Shown here one piece after another: positions 24,415 to 58,440 of a stretch of 64,000 bases of DNA. The notes below the pieces were generated by a model, which had not been told where the DNA came from, made no database searches, and worked only from the letters and a program-made list of their open reading frames with translations. Source of the DNA: Reticulascus tulasneorum (lineage: Eukaryota; Ascomycota; Sordariomycetes; Glomerellales; Reticulascaceae); NCBI GenBank assembly GCA_001557505.1, contig LSAX01000001.1, positions 310,001-374,000 of the forward strand. Direction: 5' to 3'. How positions within the stretch are numbered: position 1 is the stretch's first letter; every line of letters begins with the position of its first letter. A program made the translations under genes and the position numbers.

Positions 24415-26095
24415 ATGGATGCCACAAAGACAGAAGAGGCCCGGGCTCCTTATCCCATGATCAGAGACACAAAACGGTGGTTCTGTGCCAAAGCTTCCAC
24501 CTGCTGAGATCGACATCGAGAAATCCTCTGTAGACGAAAAGTCGGCAGAGGCACCGGACAAGGACCCTAATGTCGTCGACTTTGACGGACCCAATGATCC
24601 AGAAAACCCGATGAATTGGTCTTCAGCCAAGAAAACGACGGCTATAGTCATCGTAACTGCTATGACGCTACTCTCTTATGTAACAGTTTCTTAAATGCGT
24701 CTTGGTTCCAGGCCGTGCAAAAGATTGACTCGTCTTGATTGCAGACCCATTGGCTCGACAATCAACTCCTCCGCAACATTGGACATCTTGGACCAATTCA
24801 ACTCCACCAACAAGACGCTTGGGGCATTCGTCACCACCGTCTTCCTGTTGGGCTACACCTTTGGCCCCATACTTATTGCACCGCTGTCCGAGATGTACGG
24901 AAGAGCAGTTATGTATAAGGTGTGCATGTTCTTCTTCGTTGTTTTCAACGTGGCTTGCGCAGTGGCCAATAGTCTGGACTCCCTGATCGCGTTCCGATTC
25001 CTCGCCGGCCTCATGGGTTCCTGCCCTGTCACTCTCGGCACCGGCTCCATCGCCGATATGATACCTAGAGAGAAGCGGGCCGGCGCCATGGGAGCGTACG
25101 TGATTGGCGCGGTGCTGGGACCATCAATCGGACCCATTGCTGGCGGCTATCTGTCACCCGCCGCTGGATGGCGCTGGTCCTTCTGGCTAATGGCCATAGC
25201 CTCTGGGGCCAAGACCGTGATAGCTATCCTATTCGTGCGCGAGTCATACCCATACGTGCTTCTCGAACGAAAGACAGAGCGGCTGCGCAAGCAGACGGGC
25301 AACTCGAACTTGCGGTCTGCCCTGGATACGGGCAAGACGCCACGCGAGCTGTTCGCTTTCTCAATTCTACGTCCGCTAAAGATGCTCCTCTCTCCTATTG
25401 TCTTTTCGCTGTCTCTCTACGCCGCCGTCGTCTACAGTTACCTGTACCTGTGCTTCACCACCTTCGAAGTGGTCTTTGGTGGCCAGTACGGTTTCAATAG
25501 CGGCCAATCTGGGCTGGCGACCCTGGGCCTAGGGATTGGTTCCATTTTTTGCGTTTTCGCCTGCGGTACAGCGGCAGAAAAGATCTCCAAGTACCTAACT
25601 AAGAAGAATGGCGGTGATCCAAAGCCTGAATACCGGCTGCCACCGATGATTGTTGGCGCGTTATGCACTCCCATAGGCTTATTCTGGTATGGGTGGTCAG
25701 CCGAGGCCAGAATACACTGGATTGTCCCAATTATAGGAACTGCCTTCATAGGTTTGGGCATGATTTTTACATATGTGAGTCGTCTTTCTGGTGTGCCCCT
25801 TGCTCGTGATAAACCTGTCTCAGCTAACAGTAATCCCCAGATGGCCAGCACCATGTACCTTGTCGACGCATACACCGTCCATGCAGCATCGGTGACTGCT
25901 TCAACCACCATTTTCCGTTGTCTTTTGGGAGCCATATTGCCCCTTGCTGGGCCTTCCATGTTCGATGCGTTGGGATTAGGCTGCGGAAACTCGCTCCTTG
26001 GATTCATTGCCATCGCCTTTAGCCCCATTCCATGCATCCTTTACCTTTACGGCCAACGGATTCGGGAGACAGCGCTCTTCAAGGTGGAGTTCTGA
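24415..26095 (+). pseudogene. DHA1-type MFS transporter with reading-frame breaks
   Basis: The body is clear. A hydrophilic N-terminus ends PNDPENPMNWSS, followed by about 12 membrane helices. It carries motif A (APLSEMYGR), the helix-4/5 GSCPVTLGTGSIADMIPREKRAGAMG and the GAVLGPSIGPIAGG antiporter motif. Intron 25775-25840 is 66 nt and free of stops. Two breaks are visible. The only good ATG (24415, MDATKTEEARAPYP) is in a different frame from the N-terminal domain, with the shift near 24450-24460. Second, every donor around 24660-24680 is phase 0 while every usable acceptor up to 24745 is phase 2, so exon 1 cannot be joined in frame to the rest. A damaged gene or assembly indels would explain this. 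Confidence 0.7.
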
Positions 26096-39653: not shown

Positions 39654-40114
39654 CCTTGTTCGGGATTTTGCGCGTAACAATGAAATCTCATCTCGAGATG
39701 GTGTCCGTCGGACACGGATACGGGAGATGTTCTCGAAGCATTCCGCACCACTGCAGCCATACTGCCTGATTTCCGGGTTAATAAAAGACTAATCTAGTCC
39801 ACTTCAGGACACCCCCCTACTACGTAGACTAGGGATGACAGGCGTCGGCCGTCGACATCCCCTGGAGTCAGTGATGCTCGAGTCATGAATGCGTGGTTTC
39901 TAGGCAGTCTTGCGTGAAATGGAAAGTTCAGGCTCCCACTATTCCATTCCGGCCCTCCACATTTCGAGCGGCATCTCTGCTGCTAGATCGAGCACCAAAG
40001 GAGGCTTTGGTACGGCAGTCTGCAAGAGGCACTGGGACAAAAGTCCTTAATCCTTGTAAATTCGTAATATGGGTATACCTGGTGCGTAGAAATACGAAAA
40101 AAATCGTAAACATG
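39180..40114. other. Gene-free stretch before the AT-rich block
   Basis: 3' region of the cutinase gene, then spacer with a CT microsatellite. GC content falls sharply from about 40080. Confidence 0.45.
39621..39650. repeat. (CT)15 microsatellite
   Basis: Fifteen uninterrupted CT units preceded by imperfect CTCTCCCTCC. Confidence 0.9.
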
Positions 40115-43100
40115 TAATTAAAAGTTGTTAGACCTCTTTCTTAGGGTTTCAATCCCTACATAATATTATACCATCTAGTATAACTTTATATATCTTTACC
40201 TATATATCTATATATCTATTAAACCTAACTCTATCTTTATATAATACTAACCGAACGTTTATAGTGGTATCCTTACTACCGAAATATAATATATCTATAA
40301 GTTAAACAGTTTCATCTAGAATAACTTATTTATAATTATTATAATACTAATTTGCTTACTTTTATATAAGCTTATATAGAAGATAAGGTTATCTATAATC
40401 TTATTAGTTTAGAAATAGTCAAAGTAATATAAAACCTTTTTTGATTAAACTTTTTATTAAGTAAAAATATATTTTATATTTTACTTATTTCTTAATCTAT
40501 ATGAATACGTGAAGGTTTTTATAATATTATAATTTAAAGGTTAAATATATATAAGATAAGTATTTGTTATATAAAGAAAGAACTAAAAAAGTTTTTTATT
40601 ATTAATATTAATATTTTATTATATATTACTAAATATTATAATAAGGAGGTTGGTTTATTAATAATAAAGATATATATAATTATATAAGTCTTTAAGAAGT
40701 TTAATATAAAAACTTAATTTAGACTAAATAATAACTATCTTTTATATTAACATATAATTATTAATATTATTAAATATTTTATAATAGATAAATCTTTTCT
40801 TATATAAAATTAAAAAATAATATTAATTATAAAGAAAAATCTTATTAATATCTTAGAATATTAAGATATTATATATAAAATTTAGGATATCTATATATTT
40901 CTAAATATAGTTAATATTCTAATTAATAAAGATAAATATAATTTTATATTAATATCTATAACTTTTAAAGAGCTTCTAAGTAATATTATTCTTTAGAAAA
41001 TATAATCTTAAAAACTAATTAACTATATAAATAAAAATAAACTTATATAAATCTAATTAATTTTCTTTATAATAAGTCAAAGCTAATAAAAGTAAAAAGA
41101 GTATTAAAAAAAGAGATTAAAGAAGAATATATAGAAAAAGAATAAGTTAAAGAAAAATAAATTAAAGAAAACCAAATTGAAAAAGAATAAATTAAAAAAG
41201 AATAAGATAAAGAAAAAAATAATAATAAAAGATTATATAAACCTAATTAACCTTAAAAGATAAAAATATATCTTTTTATAATAATATATAATAAGATATA
41301 AACTTAGTCATCATAGCTTTATTTTAAACGAAAACGTTTATATATTTTAATAGATAAATTAGATAAAGAAGATAATTAACGTTATTTTTCTATATCTTTA
41401 TCTTTATATTCATTTTTAATCTTAATTATACTAAGTTAATTAATATTAATTTATTATTAATTTAAACGTTATTAAATTTATTTAATTCCTTTAGTTAATA
41501 ATATAAGAAGTCTAATAGCTAGTTATATATCTTTATCTATATACATTTTCAAATAAAGCTATAAATATTTATATAAAGCAAACTAAAGATAAACCATTTT
41601 ACTAATAGATAATTATATTAGAAAATCTTTTATATAATTTAATATATCTTTATAAACTTATATTATAATAACCAGAAGAAAAATATCTAACTTAAATACA
41701 TCTTAGTTTAAAATATCTATCATTTTATAAATATATTCTTAATTAATTAGTTATATATAGTCTTATATAGTTTAAAGATTAAGCTGATAATATAAATACT
41801 AAGGTTTTCTATATATAATATATAAATAATTCTTCTATTAGCGAATACGATAAGAATTTTACATTTATATAAACAAAGAAAACTTTATATAGATAAAAAG
41901 TATATAAGTATAAAGAAGTATAATCTAGTCGAAAAGATGTATAAGATTATATAAGTTTTTTAAATATAAAAATCTAAAATATTCTTATATAATTTAATAT
42001 AACTTTATATATATATATTATAAAAACTTACTCTTTAGAATATAGATCGGCCTTAATAAAGATGGTTTTATTAGTTTTCAATCTTAACATTATAAATACT
42101 TTTTCCAAAGATCTAAATATTTTGAAACTTAACTAAAATTATATTATCATATATAATCTTTATATGATCTTATATAAGATATTAATAAACATTAGTAATA
42201 AATATTATTTCTTTACCACAGTCTAATTAAATAATATATAATATTATTTTATAAGCTTATAAGATTATAAAATATTATATAAGTATATTTCATAATATAT
42301 AAGTAGATATATTAACATAGAACTATATAATAAACTAAGAATATATATTAATACTTATATAGATCTTAAACCTATATAATAAAAGTTTATTATATATGTT
42401 TATCGACTAAATAAAGTTTAATCTTAATATAATCTAGCTTATATAACGATTCTAAATATTATTTAAACGTATAACAACTTTGTCTAAGAAGACTTTACGA
42501 TATATTATATAGAAAATATCTTGATTAATAATATAACCATATTAACATATAAATATATAAAGATATTTATATTTATACCTTTAAGCTATTTATATTTCAT
42601 CATCTATACCATTAAAAAAGTCAAAGGCTTTCTTCTATATAATTATAATCTATTCTATATCTTATTTATAAAATAACCTATTTTATCGACGTAAGACTTA
42701 TAAACTAGTTTTTAAGATTATAAACCTTTCTACTTATAGACGATAAAGTAATTTAGAATTATATAAGTTAATCTTAAAGAAAAATAAATAGATTTAACTA
42801 AGTAAATCTTTAGAAAAAACTATATAAATCTCCTAGATAAAGCTTTATTTTATAAATTATTAAGATAAAGTTTTTAATAAAACTTAATATAAGTAAGTAA
42901 TATATAAATATATATAGATTATATTATTTATCTACTTATCTGCTTATTTTAAAATAATATCTTTACGAAATAATAATAAGTTAATCTTTAATCGATTAAT
43001 TTGAAATATTAAGATAATCATTTATATATAATTATATATAAAATTATATAGATATATCTAGAGAAATATTTAATTAAACTTCTTAAGAAAAAAAAACCTA

Positions 43101-44350
43101 AACCTACCTACCCCTAGATATACCAAAATAACTATTATATAGTTTTATACGCTTTTATACGTTTTTTCTTATTATTATATAAGAAAAAAAAAGATCTAAC
43201 TTTAAAAAGTATATTTACTTACTTTTAAACATACTAGATGATCTACTTATTTAAATTTTTCTATATTATAATTAGCTATATAACCTTATATACATCTATA
43301 TAAGTTAATATATACCCTTTTTAAGCATAATTATAACCTCTTTAAGGATTTTTATGAAATTATAAAGTTATTTAATATTAAATATTTTAATATATAATAT
43401 AATCTTTTCAACTACTTTCGTATATTTTTATAATATACTAGTAGTTAAACCTAGACTAAACTTACGTTTAACTATATAAGTTAATATAGATAGATATATG
43501 ATTATATAGAGATATACCTTTTAATAAACATTTAGAAACATTATTATTATAACTATAATTAATATATATATCTTCGGTATAACTAATATAACTAACGAAG
43601 ACTTTATTTTTATTTTAATAATTAATATATATATTTATATTAAAATATATATCGTTATATATATATTTCTAGATTAAATTAGTATTTTATAATCACGTAA
43701 GGTTTAGATTAAGAATAATTATATATATACCTTAAAACTTAAGCTTAAACGAGAGTATTTATTATAACTAAGATTTATATATTAATATATAACCTTATAT
43801 ATTATTATATAAATATTTATAATCTTATAATTACCTAAAAAGGCTTTTCTAATTATAAATAAAAACGTAAAAAAAGATATTAGATCTATTAGCCTATATA
43901 TACCATCTTACTAGCTTATATATACCTATAAAAGCCTAAGTAATTATATTTAGACTTATAAACTTTCTTAGCTATTTATTTAGAATTATAAATAGTTATA
44001 TATCACTAATCTTATTTAGAATAAATATATTTATATCTATTTAAATATAATTATATCCATATAAGTTTATATAAGATTGAAAAACGTAAAATAAAACCGT
44101 TTATAATTATATATTTATATTAATAATTATATAACTATATATAAATATATAAATAAAAATAAGAAATAGGTAATAGAAACCCTAAAATTAATCTATTCTT
44201 ATCTAGAATTCTATAATTTCCTTAAAATATAAGAAATTACGAAATCTATATTAGAAATAAATAATTCTAAGGTTTCTTGATCGGCTATATTTAATAAAGG
44301 ATATTTCTTACTAATAACTATATAATGTTATATAGTAAGGTGATGGTTTA
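40115..44350. repeat. AT-rich isochore, RIP-degraded repeat DNA
   Basis: About 4.2 kb composed almost wholly of A and T, with TpA-rich words. The change in composition is abrupt at both edges and no intact frame remains. At about 41120-41230, lysine/glutamate-like codons alternate with TAA exactly where CAA (Gln) would be expected, as C-to-T mutation gives. This fits RIP of a former transposon. No terminal repeats could be recognised. TGTTAG at about 40127 could be a degraded LTR start. Confidence 0.8.
42809..43180 (+). mobile_element. Relic of a Copia-type reverse transcriptase
   Basis: Reading one continuous plus frame through the stops gives Copia pol landmarks in the correct order. At 42809 is LxKKLYKSPR (compare the SLYGLKQAPR region). 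At 42911 is YIDYII at the YVDD active-site position. At 43052 is IYLEKYLIKLLKK (compare IYLSQEKYIEKLL). Then KPKPTYP and, at 43121, YQ followed by LYA (compare YRxAIGSLMYA). All anchors are in the same phase and roughly at the expected spacings. TAA/TAG codons stand at likely Gln or Trp positions. The element is long dead. Confidence 0.65.
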
Positions 44351-45144
44351 AGGCAAGCTGATATATAATTGTGGGTTGTTTACAGGGAAGAAAGAAAAGA
44401 AGAAATTTACAAAAGCGGGTGTTAGGATAATAGACGGTAGAGGGGCAGAAAAGTAGGGCTATTTTTATGAATTTGTATGTAGCTATTCAATAAAAATTTC
44501 TATTTGTCTAAATATGTACTAGTCCGTTTTTTGCTGGAGGGGTCGTTGCAGTAACAAAAGACTTTTGTCCCAGTGGCTCCTGCAGACTGCCGTACTTTGG
44601 CACTATCGAGAGGCGCTTTCGGGGCTGGATCCGTCCATAGTGCTGCTGGTGGGAGGTGTCTCGGAGGACTAGTCCCACGTGGGGCAGATCAGCGATTTGG
44701 ACGGGGAAATCTGGCATGGGTTTTGGGCCAATTCCCTGCTTTGGATGTTGGTTTACGGGCTACGCGCCACCTTGGCGACTCCACGCGTGGGTTGGTTATC
44801 TGACCAGGCGGGAATACAAGTGTGTCTCCTAGCCGCTCTTGGGATTACCCATTCTCTCCTTCGTCAGTTCGAGTTTAACAGAGGTTAAGATGATGAACAA
44901 GAGGAGCTGTTTCGGCTGTCGCGTACATGGTCGAACTTGATGCGCCGAGCCCAATTGACTGTCTTTCATCCTCGATCGATCGACATCGAATACGTTCTGA
45001 CCAGCCCGATACGAGATCCGTCGTAATCGCAAACCCACATTTTCGCTCGCTGATTGTTTAGTCCGTTTCAATCATTTTGCAATGAGTCCATCAATCTGAA
45101 TACAAGGACTTGGACATGTCACTCGCTCAACCGATCAATTTACA
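44351..45144. other. Transition from AT-rich block to flippase promoter
   Basis: GC content recovers from about 44400-44550. The remainder is the upstream region of the P4-ATPase gene. No gene is seen. Confidence 0.45.
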
Positions 45145-52893: not shown

Positions 52894-54291
52894 ATGTTGT
52901 ACTCACGATTCGCCCTCCTGGCCTTGGCCTCCGTTGCGCTGGCCAACCCGCCCGTCTGCCCGCCGGCCCAGATCCAGACCGTCGTCCACACCATGATAGA
53001 GACCGTCCATGTCACTGTACCCGGCGCGGTGCGAACCGAAACCGTTCACGTTACGAGGACCGAGGTCAGGGAAATGGTCAAGACCGAAGTACGCACCAAG
53101 ACAGAGGTCAAGACCGAGGTGAAGGAGAAGACCAAAACTGAAGTAAAAGAGCACGTCAAGACCGAGGAGAAGCTGGTCACCAAAACCGAAATCAGGACCG
53201 TGGCAGTCACCCTACCTCCACACGTCAAGATCGAGACCAAGGTGGAAGAGAAGCTTGTCACAAAGACGGAGGTCAAGACAGCAGTAGTAACACTGCCACC
53301 AGTGATCAAGACGGAGATCAAAGAGAAGATCATCACACTGCCGCCCCAGGTCAAGATCGAGACCAAGGTGGTCGAGAAGGTGTTGACCGTGACGCTCCCG
53401 CCAGTCGTCAAGGTCGAAACTCGGGTACAGCACGTCACCGTGACCCAAGTCCAGAAGGAGGTTGTCACACTGCCTCCGCAAATCAGGACAGAGACGAAGA
53501 CCGTCGAGATGGTCGTCACCCTCCCGCCTCAGGTCAAGATTGAGACCAAGGTCGTGGAGAAGGTTGTCACCCTGCCCCCGCAGGTCAAGATTGAGACCAA
53601 GGTCGTTGAAAAGATCGTTACCCTACCTCCACAGGTCAGGGTCGAGACCAAGGTCGTGGAGAAGGTCGTCACCCTACCCCCAAGCGTTCGGATTGAAACA
53701 AAGGTCGAAGACAGGCTTGTAACCAGAACCGAGGTCAGAACCGAGGCGGTCACGCTTCCCCCACAGGTCAGGATCGAGACCAAGGTCGAGGACAAGCTCG
53801 TGACCGAAGTCAGGACGGTCCTCGTCACCGAGCACAACCGGGCTGTCAGCACGGTGGTGGAGACCGTCCACGTCACGCTGCCGCCCCAGATCGTCAGGGA
53901 AACAGTCCAAGTCACTGTCACTTCGGCTTTCTGCTCCACCGGCGCGGCCGCGCCGGTCATGGCTCACGAGACAGCCAACATTTCCAGCGTCGCGGCCGTG
54001 ATGCCCCATAACACGCTCGTAACATCGGTCGCAATGCCGCACACAACGACCGTCGCATCGGTGGGCATGCCGCACCAGGCCGTGCCGCCAATGGCCCCTC
54101 ACGTAACCCCATCGCCCATCTTCGTGCCGGTCGAGCACCAGCCTCAAGCAGCACCCACCGCCGCGCACATGCCGCCCCACCAAGCCCCAGCGGTAATCCT
54201 CATCCCCGCTGTGCATCAACCTCCCCACGCGGCACCCGCACCGGTCGTGACGCCTGCGCATCCGCCCATGCGATTCGCGCGACGAACATAG
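52894..54291 (+). CDS. Secreted protein with 17-residue TLPP repeats
   Basis: This is an intronless protein of 465 residues. The signal peptide is MLYSRFALLALASVALA. The body (about residues 25-350) is a run of alternating hydrophobic and charged residues. The core unit is VTLPPQVKIETKVVEKV and there are 11 TLPP boxes. The four most regular copies start at nt 53515, 53566, 53617 and 53668, a 51-bp period. Variants insert LVTKTE-type spacers. The alternation suggests stacked beta-strands. The C-terminal ~115 residues are rich in Pro, His and Ala (repeated MPH, QPPHA). There is no GPI signal or membrane helix, and almost no cysteine. I do not recognise a named family. A structural wall or matrix role is inference. 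Confidence 0.8.
   Translation: MLYSRFALLALASVALANPPVCPPAQIQTVVHTMIETVHVTVPGAVRTETVHVTRTEVREMVKTEVRTKTEVKTEVKEKTKTEVKEHVKTEEKLVTKTEIRTVAVTLPPHVKIETKVEEKLVTKTEVKTAVVTLPPVIKTEIKEKIITLPPQVKIETKVVEKVLTVTLPPVVKVETRVQHVTVTQVQKEVVTLPPQIRTETKTVEMVVTLPPQVKIETKVVEKVVTLPPQVKIETKVVEKIVTLPPQVRVETKVVEKVVTLPPSVRIETKVEDRLVTRTEVRTEAVTLPPQVRIETKVEDKLVTEVRTVLVTEHNRAVSTVVETVHVTLPPQIVRETVQVTVTSAFCSTGAAAPVMAHETANISSVAAVMPHNTLVTSVAMPHTTTVASVGMPHQAVPPMAPHVTPSPIFVPVEHQPQAAPTAAHMPPHQAPAVILIPAVHQPPHAAPAPVVTPAHPPMRFARRT
53515..53715 (+). repeat. Tandem 51-bp coding repeat
   Basis: Four head-to-tail units inside the repeat-protein gene, each coding VTLPP-x-V-[KR]-[IV]-ETKV. The nucleotide sequences have drifted mainly at third positions, so the protein pattern is under selection. 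Confidence 0.8.
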
Positions 54292-54532: not shown

Positions 54533-55504
54533 CTAAAAATACATCTGGGTTAAGAGTGCGGCCGATGCCATGACCGACAACAGGAAAGCACTAGGTCCCA
54601 GTGACGCGCCTGACCCAGGCGTCGGCGTCGGCGTTGGCGTCGGTGTTGATGTTGGCGACGCTTCTTCGTCAGCCTTCTTGGACTCGTTGAATTGCGCCAC
54701 AATAAAGTCTACAGCCTGCGTGCCATATCGCGTGAAATAAGCCCCGTGTACTCGCCTGTCGCTGCCGCGGTCGCAGTAGACGTCGCCCGTGTCACAGTAC
54801 GCCAGCATCTTGTCGGCGTACGGCTCACAGGCAGTCGTATTTTCTCGCGGAAAGATCTGAAGTCTGATGTCAGGGCTGGGATTCTAGCATCGATATCGGA
54901 CAATACTGACACCATCCTGGGTGCTGGTTCCATTATCCCATGGCAACCCAGTGATATGAGTGGGATCGCCCATCATCACCACCGCGATAACTGCAGCAGA
55001 GTCAGTATGAGAACAGGGGCTCTGATCATTGCGCAAACTCACCGCTCATGTCCACCACCGAAGTCGAAATGGCAAACGTCTCGTTGAAAGCATCCTCGCT
55101 CGTCCCGCAAAGCGTGTCCGCCGTCACTTGGGCACCCTGTACCCCATCAGCACCCAGCACCTCATCATGAACAACTCACATACCTGCGAGTAGCCAAGCA
55201 AAGCCACCTTGGACTCTGGGCAAGCAGCATTGTACTTCGTGAGAGCATTCGTCAACGCTTGCACCCCTGCCGCCACCGAGCCGCTGTAATTCGTAAAGAC
55301 AGCGGGGTAATCCAGCGCCTGGATTTTTGAGTTCGGCACGGCGTTCGCCACACCGTCTGCAATCACGCCAATCCGTCCTGTTCCTGGTGGCTCGTTCGAA
55401 CCTCGTGCAACGATCATATAGACGCCGTCAACGCAGGTGGTATCTTGGGCGGCGCTTTGTGCGACCAAGGCGCCAAGGAGGAGAAGGATCTCGGGGAGCT
55501 TCAT
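54533..55504 (-). CDS. GPI-anchored cutinase-family (CE5) esterase
   Basis: Exons 55184-55504, 55043-55136, 54911-54990 and 54533-54856 give 272 residues. The signal peptide runs from MKLPEILLLLGALVAQSAA. The CE5 core shows VYMIVARGSNEPPGTG, the nucleophile GYSQG split at intron 1, CEPYADKMLAYCDTGDVYC with the catalytic Asp, and HGAYFTRYG with the His. After the domain comes a Thr-Pro repeat stalk (PTPTPTPTP), then a Gly/Ser site and a hydrophobic tail, as for GPI attachment. It resembles acetylxylan-esterase/cutinase proteins fixed to the cell surface. I start at 55504, because longer readings in this frame lack a signal peptide. Intron 3 uses a GTCAGT donor. Confidence 0.87.
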
Positions 55505-56118
55505 TTCGGGTGGTTGTCGAAGCTGCGATTGCTGAATTTGCTCGCCGGGCAGATTGTCCTCTTTAATCGAGGAAATCAATGACGTCTCAATACCATCATT
55601 CGCGATAGGCAATTCCTCTCACAGGGGACTTAAAGACGTAGCGCCAGGAGTGGTTCCAGCCAGGCGAACAGCCTGCTTTATAAACCCGGGTGACACAGAT
55701 ACCCAACGAGCTAGAAGACCGAAGGATGGGCATGGGCACATGCTAGCTAGCCTCTATCTCTGGCAATGCCTGTTGCGTAATGCGGGCGCGTGATTGCCCC
55801 GTCCTTGATTCAATATATCCATTACGGGAGTAGATAGTGGCCCGACAAGAAAGCCTTCCGTTTGCTATCGCGTATCAGGAGTACGAAGAATGCCTTGAAA
55901 GACCAGAGGCGCCACTGCGTTGCATTAGCCGGTGCGCCACGTCCGGATTGTGCGGGGTTAGGCTTGCGAGCTCCAAGCTTCTTTCGCAGAATATCACGCG
56001 CTACGTTTATCCCAGCCACTCTGTGCCAAACACGAACTCGTGCGCTAGCAAGTTGCGGCATCTTCGGCTTTACGTAGACAAGCTTGGGTTGCGACTTGAA
56101 CATACAAATAAACGAAGA
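55505..56118. other. Divergent promoter region
   Basis: This lies between the CE5 gene and the HET gene. The frame of the HET gene is open back to 55837 but has no ATG before 56119, so this part is probably leader or promoter. Confidence 0.45.
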
Positions 56119-58440
56119 ATGCCCGGCCAGGCTGTCCACAATGGCAATATTGCTGGTGGCATCTTTGGCAACGAAGTTGGGAATGACGTTGGCTGCGAAA
56201 CTTGCCGTCAATTATGGCTATTCCTAACAGTCGAGGTACAAGGTGATTTCCGGGAATTAGGTCGAGTTAGTCTTGGACGTCTAGACTCTCTCCTGGCAGC
56301 CAAATGCTCTGGACATGATCCTTTGTTCCGGGAAGTCAAGAAACGTTGCGATGCAAAGTTTGCAGACTTTGCACCGCTCGCAAGTGCACGTGAGGCAGAT
56401 GAGGTCTTGATTGAAGCACAACCCAATCATGTCTCCCTCATGGTTCTAAGAGAGCAGAAGGAATCTCCCTGGGAGATCCTCAACTTCTCACTACTCCAAA
56501 GGCCGGATGTCTTAGGTCATCCAGGACGTGGTCGTGTACCTGACCCAGAATGGGTCAATGTAGAGCTTGCAAAACAATGGAAAACCAACTGCCTTCTAGA
56601 GCACAAAGAGGAGTGCCAGAACCCACTCAAGATCAAGTCCATGTCCCCGGCATGGCTCATTGATGTTCGCACCAAGTCTCTCGTTCCCGGTCAAAATGTC
56701 AGCGGTTTCGTTGCGATATCATACAGGTGGGGGGAAGATGGCGGCGGCTTTAGAACCAGAAAAGATTTACTACCTCTGCTCCAACAGGACAGTTCGCTCG
56801 AACTTCCACAGATAGATATGAAGCTATCCCCAGTGCTAAGAAGAGCAATGTATCTAGTTGAGGCGCTAGGAGAGCGCTATCTTTGGGCAGATACGCTGTG
56901 CATTGTCCAGGAAAATCAGGCCGAAACAACGTCTCAGTTGAATCTGATGGGAGCTATCTATTTCAGTGCTGTATTCACCATTATTGCTGCAGATGGAGAT
57001 GCCCAAGATGGACTTGCAGGCGTGGGTGGTAAATGCGGGATGATTCGACGGCCGCAAGAAAACGAATTAGTCGTTCCGTTCGGGGACGAGGAAATCTTCA
57101 TCAGGCAACGTCGTCGTGACGGCTGGTACACAAGCGAATACTATCTCCGAGGGTGGACGTTCCAAGAGTATTTTATGTCCAAGCGGCGGCTGGTGTTCAA
57201 CGAAGCAGAAATCCATTGGGAATGCCAGTGTCATACGTGGGACGAGGACATGGTTGCAGGTCATAAATCTTCTGCTACTGAGATGCTCGACATGCAAACC
57301 TTGGTCGTCAAAGGCAGCCCGGTTCTAAACGCTCTGGCTACCGTCGTCTCCGAATACAACTCCCGAAAGCTTACTTACGACGCCGATGCCCTCCCGGGGA
57401 TCTCTGGTCTACTCGGCATCATGAGCCGCACGTTCCCCGGCGGGTTCCTGTATGGACTTCCAGAAATGATTTTTGACAAGTCTCTCGCCTGGTATCCATA
57501 TCACAGTGATCCGATCAGCGTCAAAACGAATCTTGTACGACGAAGTATTGCTAGCAGCGACAGCCAAGTCCCCTCCTCGTCGGCGGGTACCCCGTCCTGG
57601 TCCTTTCTTGGTTGGCGTGGCTATGTAGCTTGGATGCTCGAGTATGCCTTCTCAGGCGGCGCAAAAGTAACAGAGGAAACGATTCCAATCACTGAGTGGT
57701 ATACCAGTCACACACCTTATGGGGGCAGGCGCCGCCGCATCACGTCTAGCTGGTTTGACCAACGAGAGAAATACAAGGCCGCTTCTGATCCATTGCCCTC
57801 CGGATGGAGGCGAGAAAGGTATGATCCCGAACTACACCACATGCGGATATATCAGTTTCCTCCGAACCATATTCCAGAGGACGGCAACCGTTACGTATTT
57901 AATCACCAAAACTATCCTGCCAGATGGTACTGGCATCCAACACCTATGGTTGAAATCAACGAGCTCACACCATCATTTATTCCAGAGCAAACGCCTTACA
58001 TCATGTGCGAGACCAAGCGAGCATGGGTCCACGCTGTTCGGTCTCCGGACGACTGGGCGGAGGATTTCGACGCTCCGAAAGCTAGACCGAAAGCAATCGG
58101 CTACGCAAAGACCCTGCTGCGCCTTTGCACTGTGTCCGGTACTAAGATTGGAAGGCTGAATCTGCATCACGAGAAGGATCTCGAGCAATTCCCCGAAGAG
58201 CCTGCGTTGGGATTGGTGATAGAGCTGGTGGCAATCAGCCGCCGACAGCGTGCAGCGACGATGCTTACTCATTTTTCAGGTCGTGAGATGCTGTGGTCTA
58301 CTCCCGATGACCTAGAGGATTATGTTGTGCTGTGGGTTAAGTGGAAGGATGGGGTTGCGTATCGCAAAGCGATTGGGTCGGTTGGAAGGACGCAGTGGGA
58401 GGGTCTGCCCCTAGAGCGTGTTTCTCTTGTGTTGGGTTGA
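56119..58440 (+). CDS. HET-domain (heterokaryon incompatibility) protein
   Basis: This is an intronless protein of 773 residues. The HET domain spans about residues 190-350. It has the usual three blocks: GFVAISYRWG, then ALGERYLWADTLCIVQEN, then YYLRGWTFQEYFMSKRRLVF. The first 40 residues include GCETCRQLW. The C-terminal half has no known domain, as is usual for this family. HET proteins trigger cell death or growth arrest after fusion of unlike hyphae, and some act downstream of NLR-like receptors. The frame remains open upstream to 55837, but the first ATG is at 56119. An ankyrin protein with a Helo-like N-terminus lies 2 kb away. Confidence 0.9.
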   Translation: MPGQAVHNGNIAGGIFGNEVGNDVGCETCRQLWLFLTVEVQGDFRELGRVSLGRLDSLLAAKCSGHDPLFREVKKRCDAKFADFAPLASAREADEVLIEAQPNHVSLMVLREQKESPWEILNFSLLQRPDVLGHPGRGRVPDPEWVNVELAKQWKTNCLLEHKEECQNPLKIKSMSPAWLIDVRTKSLVPGQNVSGFVAISYRWGEDGGGFRTRKDLLPLLQQDSSLELPQIDMKLSPVLRRAMYLVEALGERYLWADTLCIVQENQAETTSQLNLMGAIYFSAVFTIIAADGDAQDGLAGVGGKCGMIRRPQENELVVPFGDEEIFIRQRRRDGWYTSEYYLRGWTFQEYFMSKRRLVFNEAEIHWECQCHTWDEDMVAGHKSSATEMLDMQTLVVKGSPVLNALATVVSEYNSRKLTYDADALPGISGLLGIMSRTFPGGFLYGLPEMIFDKSLAWYPYHSDPISVKTNLVRRSIASSDSQVPSSSAGTPSWSFLGWRGYVAWMLEYAFSGGAKVTEETIPITEWYTSHTPYGGRRRRITSSWFDQREKYKAASDPLPSGWRRERYDPELHHMRIYQFPPNHIPEDGNRYVFNHQNYPARWYWHPTPMVEINELTPSFIPEQTPYIMCETKRAWVHAVRSPDDWAEDFDAPKARPKAIGYAKTLLRLCTVSGTKIGRLNLHHEKDLEQFPEEPALGLVIELVAISRRQRAATMLTHFSGREMLWSTPDDLEDYVVLWVKWKDGVAYRKAIGSVGRTQWEGLPLERVSLVLG

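Follow-up and report, generated by a model that had tools for sequence, protein, structure and literature searches.

What could a fungus make of a chain in which a Pro-Pro box interrupts stretches rich in Val, Lys, and Glu again and again, and is such a chain a real protein in the first place? The question is raised by a 465-residue open reading frame in the window analysed here, i.e., the 64,000-nucleotide stretch of Reticulascus tulasneorum contig LSAX01000001.1 from position 310,001 to 374,000, which an earlier note made from the letters alone had read as encoding a secreted beta-repeat protein. The frame begins with the ATG at 52894 and its stop codon ends at 54291, both coordinates being exact; it is apparently intronless. 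In window positions its features are:

52894..54291, + strand: ORF of the orphan repeat protein, with a secretion-like start; the sole stop-free frame of six
52894..52944, + strand: putative signal peptide, residues 1–17 (MLYSRFALLALASVALA), by eye and hydropathy
52957..52959, + strand: Cys22, N-terminal edge of repeat domain (two cysteines in all)
52999..53208, + strand: TEV/KTE-rich N-terminal part without TLPP, residues 36–105
53209..53886, + strand: first to last TLPP box (n = 11), residues 106–331, core unit QVKIETKVVEKVVTLPP
53479..53682, + strand: the four most regular 17-residue units, residues 196–263, by unit match and 51-bp period
53929..54288, + strand: His/Pro/Ala/Met-rich tail, residues 346–465, with 11 His and three MPH
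53932..53934, + strand: Cys347, C-terminal edge of repeat domain (the other cysteine)

The eleven TLPP boxes reported in the earlier note were counted exactly, starting at residues 106, 133, 148, 167, 192, 209, 226, 243, 260, 287, and 328 (spacings of 27, 15, 19, 25, 17, 17, 17, 17, 27, and 41), so that Pro-Pro recurs every 15 to 41 residues in the array; 10,000 shuffles of residues 19–345 gave a mean of 0.018 boxes and never more than two. Tandem Repeats Finder identified a 51-bp unit at 53491–53682 (3.8 copies, 82% matches). The core unit agreed with the 17-mers at residues 196, 213, 230, and 247 in 12, 17, 16, and 15 of 17 positions, respectively, scores that are favoured by its having been drawn from the protein itself (residues 213–229), while the best match in 2000 shuffles of residues 19–345 was 11 of 17. 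The N-terminal part is opened at residue 36 by ETVHVTVP, which is echoed by ETVHVTLP at residue 323, and ETVHVT[VL]P is thus present near both ends of the repeat domain. Residues 19–345 contain 23.9% Val, 17.7% Thr, 12.5% Glu, and 10.7% Lys, together with 0.9% Ser, 0.3% Gly, and very few aromatic residues. Charges in the array (residues 101–345) are near balance, at 37 Lys/Arg to 30 Glu/Asp, and the calculated pI of residues 19–465 is 9.4. One cysteine lies on either side of the array and there is no other, the single N-glycosylation motif (NIS at 362) is inside the tail, and the sole dibasic pair of the whole protein is the Arg-Arg at 463–464 in the last residues, MRFARRT, a scan for such pairs having found no Kex2-type site inside the array.

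The repeats themselves bear on whether the frame is translated into something that matters. Among the eleven boxes, taken as 14-residue units, pS (the silent difference) was 0.62 and pN (the replacement difference) 0.22; the four 17-residue units that end at boxes 209 to 260 gave 0.51 and 0.11. The comparison is one of repeats within one allele and says nothing on differences between strains. This excess of silent over replacement change supports a constrained protein; moreover, as roughly one silent site in two differs even among the regular units, the array is unlike the outcome of fresh slippage and its protein sequence has been conserved; repeat number would accordingly be expected to vary little from strain to strain. 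Against this stands the possibility that the locus is non-functional, an open frame thrown up by GC-rich repeat DNA or lying opposite a true gene on the other strand, which would fit with the failure to find any homologue and with a silent excess in one antisense frame as well (pN/pS 0.47, the forward frame having 0.42, both computed on boxes padded by one codon on each side). The antisense excess follows from the two frames sharing the wobble position, and the antisense frame is interrupted, with 6 stops in the stretch, 1 of them inside the boxes, whereas the forward frame alone among the six is free of stops over 465 codons. The forward frame also begins with a signal-like sequence, its first, second, and third codon positions account for 220, 236, and 490 differences, and its codon use for seven amino acids broadly resembles that of a flippase ORF in the window. 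We therefore regard a non-functional locus as highly improbable and, since silent change outweighs replacement between the repeats, which speaks against a junk ORF, we read the gene as an orphan and not as an artefact.

The predicted signal peptide, proposed in the earlier note, is supported by reading by eye and by hydropathy: the most hydrophobic 19-residue window (1.43) starts at residue 6, and the predicted cut, judged by eye, follows the putative signal peptide and precedes an Asn. GPI-anchored wall proteins end in a C-terminal hydrophobic signal; here six 19-residue windows (starts 421–446, every fifth) reached at most 0.74 and gave no sign of a C-terminal hydrophobic anchor or GPI signal, in agreement with the unanchored protein described before. 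Composition likewise bears out the His/Pro/Ala-rich tail, which has 11 His in its 120 residues and about 19% each of Pro and Ala. Three MPH motifs, at 370, 381, and 392, lie in it, a number seen in 3 of 20,000 tail shuffles and exceeded in none. Judging by its His and Met content, the tail could possibly bind metal.

Searches for relatives were negative throughout. Neither Pfam-A profiles nor PDB sequences gave a match to the protein at E ≤ 1, and among candidates scored from 5.8 billion proteins 0 of 7998 reached E ≤ 0.001 with the full protein as query and 0 of 7995 reached E ≤ 10 with residues 95–345, the scored candidates being those that shared most words with the query, so that distant relatives may be crowded out by low-complexity proteins. 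In these three sets, then, the repeat unit matched no described family, in line with the earlier note, which knew of none. That note had set two outcomes against its own reading, a strong match to a characterised family, or an absence of transcription and of homologues; no such match was found, and homologues were indeed absent from the databases searched. As a control we used an apparently intronless MFS transporter ORF (24695–26095), for which 3963 of 7998 candidates had E ≤ 1e-30 and the 120 matches listed included many named fungi (NCBI, UniRef), so fungi are present in the protein set. The top identity among the matches listed was 83%, which indicates that the source genome's own transporter was absent among them and that proteins of close relatives may be missing. 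A phmmer comparison of residues 95–225 with residues 226–345, at the 5.8-billion database size, gave an E-value of 3.6e-26, so that an equally distant relative would be reported if it were among the candidates. The absence of homologues is informative for the annotated fungi of the protein set, not for unannotated ones. A word pattern matched 53 stretches in prokaryote genomes, none a relative by tblastn, and 4 stretches in viral contigs, again with no relatives; these collections are bacterial, archaeal, and viral, and hence say little on fungi. A literature search with the letters of the repeat unit (TLPP, VTLPP) gave nothing related in a collection that leaves out most subscription journals.

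At the genome level the fungal sequence covered was the window's own assembly (42.8 Mb, 35 contigs). At E ≤ 10 it held one other match (E 2.21, 28% identity over query residues 157–224), which fell in a 511-residue ORF of different make-up with no TLPP and was rejected as chance, and a DNA search with part of the array returned four matches, all inside the array itself. There is no credible second copy, and by these searches the gene is single-copy. In the same assembly a 5.8S rRNA model gave 15 matches over its cut-off, a count that proves little alone as the model also matches 9 of 14 prokaryote control genomes, 5 of them over the cut-off; at one locus, by eye, the eukaryotic order of small subunit, spacer, 5.8S, spacer, and large subunit can be followed. 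One match (G000:C7:16508-16661) is divergent, scoring 126.9 bits against 170 for the 14 others listed, and its contig has no other copy among the matches listed; it may be what RIP mutation left of an rDNA copy.

The repeat gene and a cutinase-family gene (54533–55612, minus strand) lie tail to tail. In the cutinase-family gene, ORF 55124–55612 matches Pfam Cutinase with an E-value of 3.5e-18, and ORF 54533–54808 has at its end a Thr/Pro stretch and a hydrophobic segment, GPI-like by eye; a tandem repeat (54618–54657, 18-bp period, 2.2 copies) lies within the latter ORF in the region of the Thr/Pro stretch, minus strand. An ORF of 867 residues at 55837–58440 (plus strand) encodes a HET domain (heterokaryon incompatibility; Pfam E 7.8e-23). 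Elsewhere in the window, an AT island at 40001–44500, with 14–18% GC in four 1-kb windows and 37% at 44–45 kb in surroundings of about 50%, contains several short AT-rich tandem repeats and has the look of heterochromatin or of DNA degraded by RIP. HET domains together with such an island would suit a filamentous ascomycete.

How such a chain might fold was approached through its periodicity. In the eleven stretches punctuated by Leu-Pro-Pro, Val, Ile, and Leu tend to alternate with Lys, Glu, and Thr. The hydrophobic moment at 180 degrees, as a mean over 11-residue windows, was 0.467 against 0.255 ± 0.028 in 300 shuffles, none of which reached it, and that at 100 degrees was 0.334 against 0.282 ± 0.020 (reached by 1 of 300); these contrasts, like all those with shuffles given here, look stronger than they are since shuffling breaks the repeats and there are fewer independent units than residues. 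Hydrophobic power at periods of 2.0–2.3 was reached by 1 of 1000 shuffles and at periods of 3.4–3.8 by 100 of 1000, and adjacent residues differed in hydrophobic state at a rate of 0.54 against 0.47, reached by 5 of 2000 shuffles. The alternation of hydrophobic and charged residues stated in the earlier note is borne out by the strand moment and is not strict: residues at i and i+2 shared their hydrophobic state at a rate of 0.46 against a shuffle mean of 0.53, with 1995 of 2000 shuffles at least as high, and VV pairs, by eye, shift the phase. Chou-Fasman means were 1.11 for strand and 1.05 for helix in residues 101–345, and 1.07 for helix and 1.04 for strand in residues 19–100, a slight helix preference. 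Taken at the level of sequence, a mainly strand-type amphipathicity is supported. An apolipoprotein-like fold, i.e., amphipathic helices punctuated by Pro, was weighed in view of the i,i+4 pattern in VVEKVV, and was set aside as the helix moment exceeds shuffles by less than the strand moment does and beta-branched residues dominate; such helices are a minor possibility.

The elongated, stacked beta structure suggested earlier gained no backing from structure prediction, which was of very low confidence. AlphaFold2 without an alignment modelled the whole protein with strands and zero helix at a mean pLDDT of 38.3, and a 96-residue core aligned with five further array stretches gave a mean pLDDT of 32.1 and only two strands of three residues each; MAFFT had placed the overlapping stretches mostly without a register shift, so that this alignment carried little information, and single-sequence folding can yield very low pLDDT for folded proteins too. 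In the charge-hydropathy plot all three parts fell on the folded side, with H of 0.440 against 0.418 for residues 19–100, 0.504 against 0.424 for residues 101–345, and 0.522 against 0.416 for the tail.

The reading we lean towards, tentatively and somewhat short of calling it probable, has the protein secreted without an anchor and serving a structural role, on the surface of the fungus or in its extracellular matrix, where its strands would drive self-assembly. Strands of different molecules would join into beta-sheets or fibrils that are hydrophobic on one face, the L-Pro-L-Pro boxes would block tight hairpins and hold the chain extended, the two cysteines might connect one chain to the next at their ends, and the tail would remain exposed and perhaps bind metal; the resulting fibres or coat outside the cell would coat or stick hyphae, as amyloid-like repellent peptides do. 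The excess of the strand moment over shuffles, larger than that of the helix moment, would speak for this, as would the near balance of charge, the cysteines at 22 and 347 only, the lack of a known domain at E ≤ 1, and the helix-free strands of the full-length model, at low confidence as they are. The very low model confidence, the almost strand-free core model, the i,i+2 relation that runs the wrong way, and the slightly helix-favouring residues 19–100 would speak against it.

Short stretches interrupted by Pro and abundant Lys and Glu also make a largely disordered chain possible, and the protein might be an elastic or spacer polymer of the wall instead, a charge-balanced V/T/K/E/P chain, perhaps O-glycosylated, serving as flexible filler or tether. 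Its low complexity, its scarcity of aromatics and Gly, its recurring Pro-Pro, and the low pLDDT values (which single-sequence folding can also give for folded proteins) fit this; the folded side of the charge-hydropathy plot does not, and a spacer would have no need of strand-type amphipathicity, so that we think it unlikely, though a real contender. Contact with the host is also possible, and an effector-type protein, shielding hyphae or binding host molecules as Ustilago maydis Rsp3 does, would share with Rsp3 a gross layout of secretion-like start, abundant repeats, an array without Kex2 sites, and no GPI signal, as far as the passages available of that report describe it (PMC5923269). Lacking a Cys-rich domain, with 2 Cys in all, and with replacements between units held down relative to silent changes (among the repeats of one allele), the protein makes this a decidedly improbable role. 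Still more doubtful is a metal-handling protein in which the repeats are a mere carrier for a Met/His/Pro tail that binds copper, zinc, or nickel: the His content and the MPH motifs of the tail would suit it, but no recognised domain was found at E ≤ 1, and the 12 other window ORFs scanned, which are part of the window's genes, include no dedicated metal gene, the Cation_ATPase model among them matching a phospholipid flippase.

Returning to the self-assembling surface protein, fungi are known to secrete repeat proteins, and what sets this one apart is a repeat unit that matched nothing in the sets searched, with far more divergence between units at silent sites than in the protein. We speculate further, on what is rather unlikely ground, that it represents a polymer class new to fungal surfaces, a natural counterpart of the designed Val/Lys-Pro-Pro hydrogel peptides in which V-K-I-E strands punctuated by LPP would form beta-fibres without Kex2 processing, linked from chain end to chain end through the two flanking cysteines, and in which metal bound by the Met/His tail could cross-link the gel or adjust it. 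Gel-forming peptides of the MAX1 kind are, to our knowledge, known only from design; if the assembly is true, the protein would be a natural version of them and would add to the ways in which fungi build their surface, and if it is false, it is one more orphan secreted protein. It is a fair candidate for bench work.

Among known fungal surface proteins, hydrophobins have eight spaced cysteines, a pattern not found in the repeat protein with its two cysteines and no Pfam family at E ≤ 1. Fungal wall proteins with repeats and a GPI anchor are likewise secreted, and differ in the C-terminal hydrophobic signal that is missing here; many non-processed fungal repeat proteins are described as GPI-anchored in the available part of PMC5923269. 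The repellent Rep1 of U. maydis, which we compared by description and not sequence against sequence, is also secreted with amphipathic repeats and would share the working principle proposed here, whereas its repeats are given as 34–55 residues long with Kex2 sites between them in the excerpt of PMC4617103, against a 17-residue core and an array without a dibasic site. Like our protein, Rsp3 is presented in the portions available of PMC5923269 as a secreted repeat protein without a GPI anchor and predicted to be unprocessed by Kex2 at its repeats; the same portions give it a Cys-rich region before the repeats and a processed N-terminus, against 2 Cys in 465 residues here, and a predicted negative charge and disorder, against our calculated pI of 9.4. 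With the Kex2-processed repeat proteins (KEPs) it has in common a signal-like start (by eye and hydropathy) and internal repeats, of which KEPs have at least three and our protein eleven boxes, but KEPs are defined, in the text available of PMC6339444, by Kex2 sites between the repeats, and the only dibasic pair here lies at the C-terminus. The designed peptide MAX1, in which Val/Lys strands flank V-DPro-Pro-T, resembles it in pattern only, through Val-rich alternating strands around a Pro-Pro turn box with Thr (PMC12940918, as far as its available sections go); MAX1 is synthetic, contains D-Pro, and has Lys as its sole charged residue and no Glu, and we claim no family relation. According to the same sections, a control peptide with L-Pro-L-Pro adopts no hairpin and aggregates irreversibly into fibrils (PMC12940918); the boxes of the ribosomally made repeat protein are L-Pro-L-Pro.
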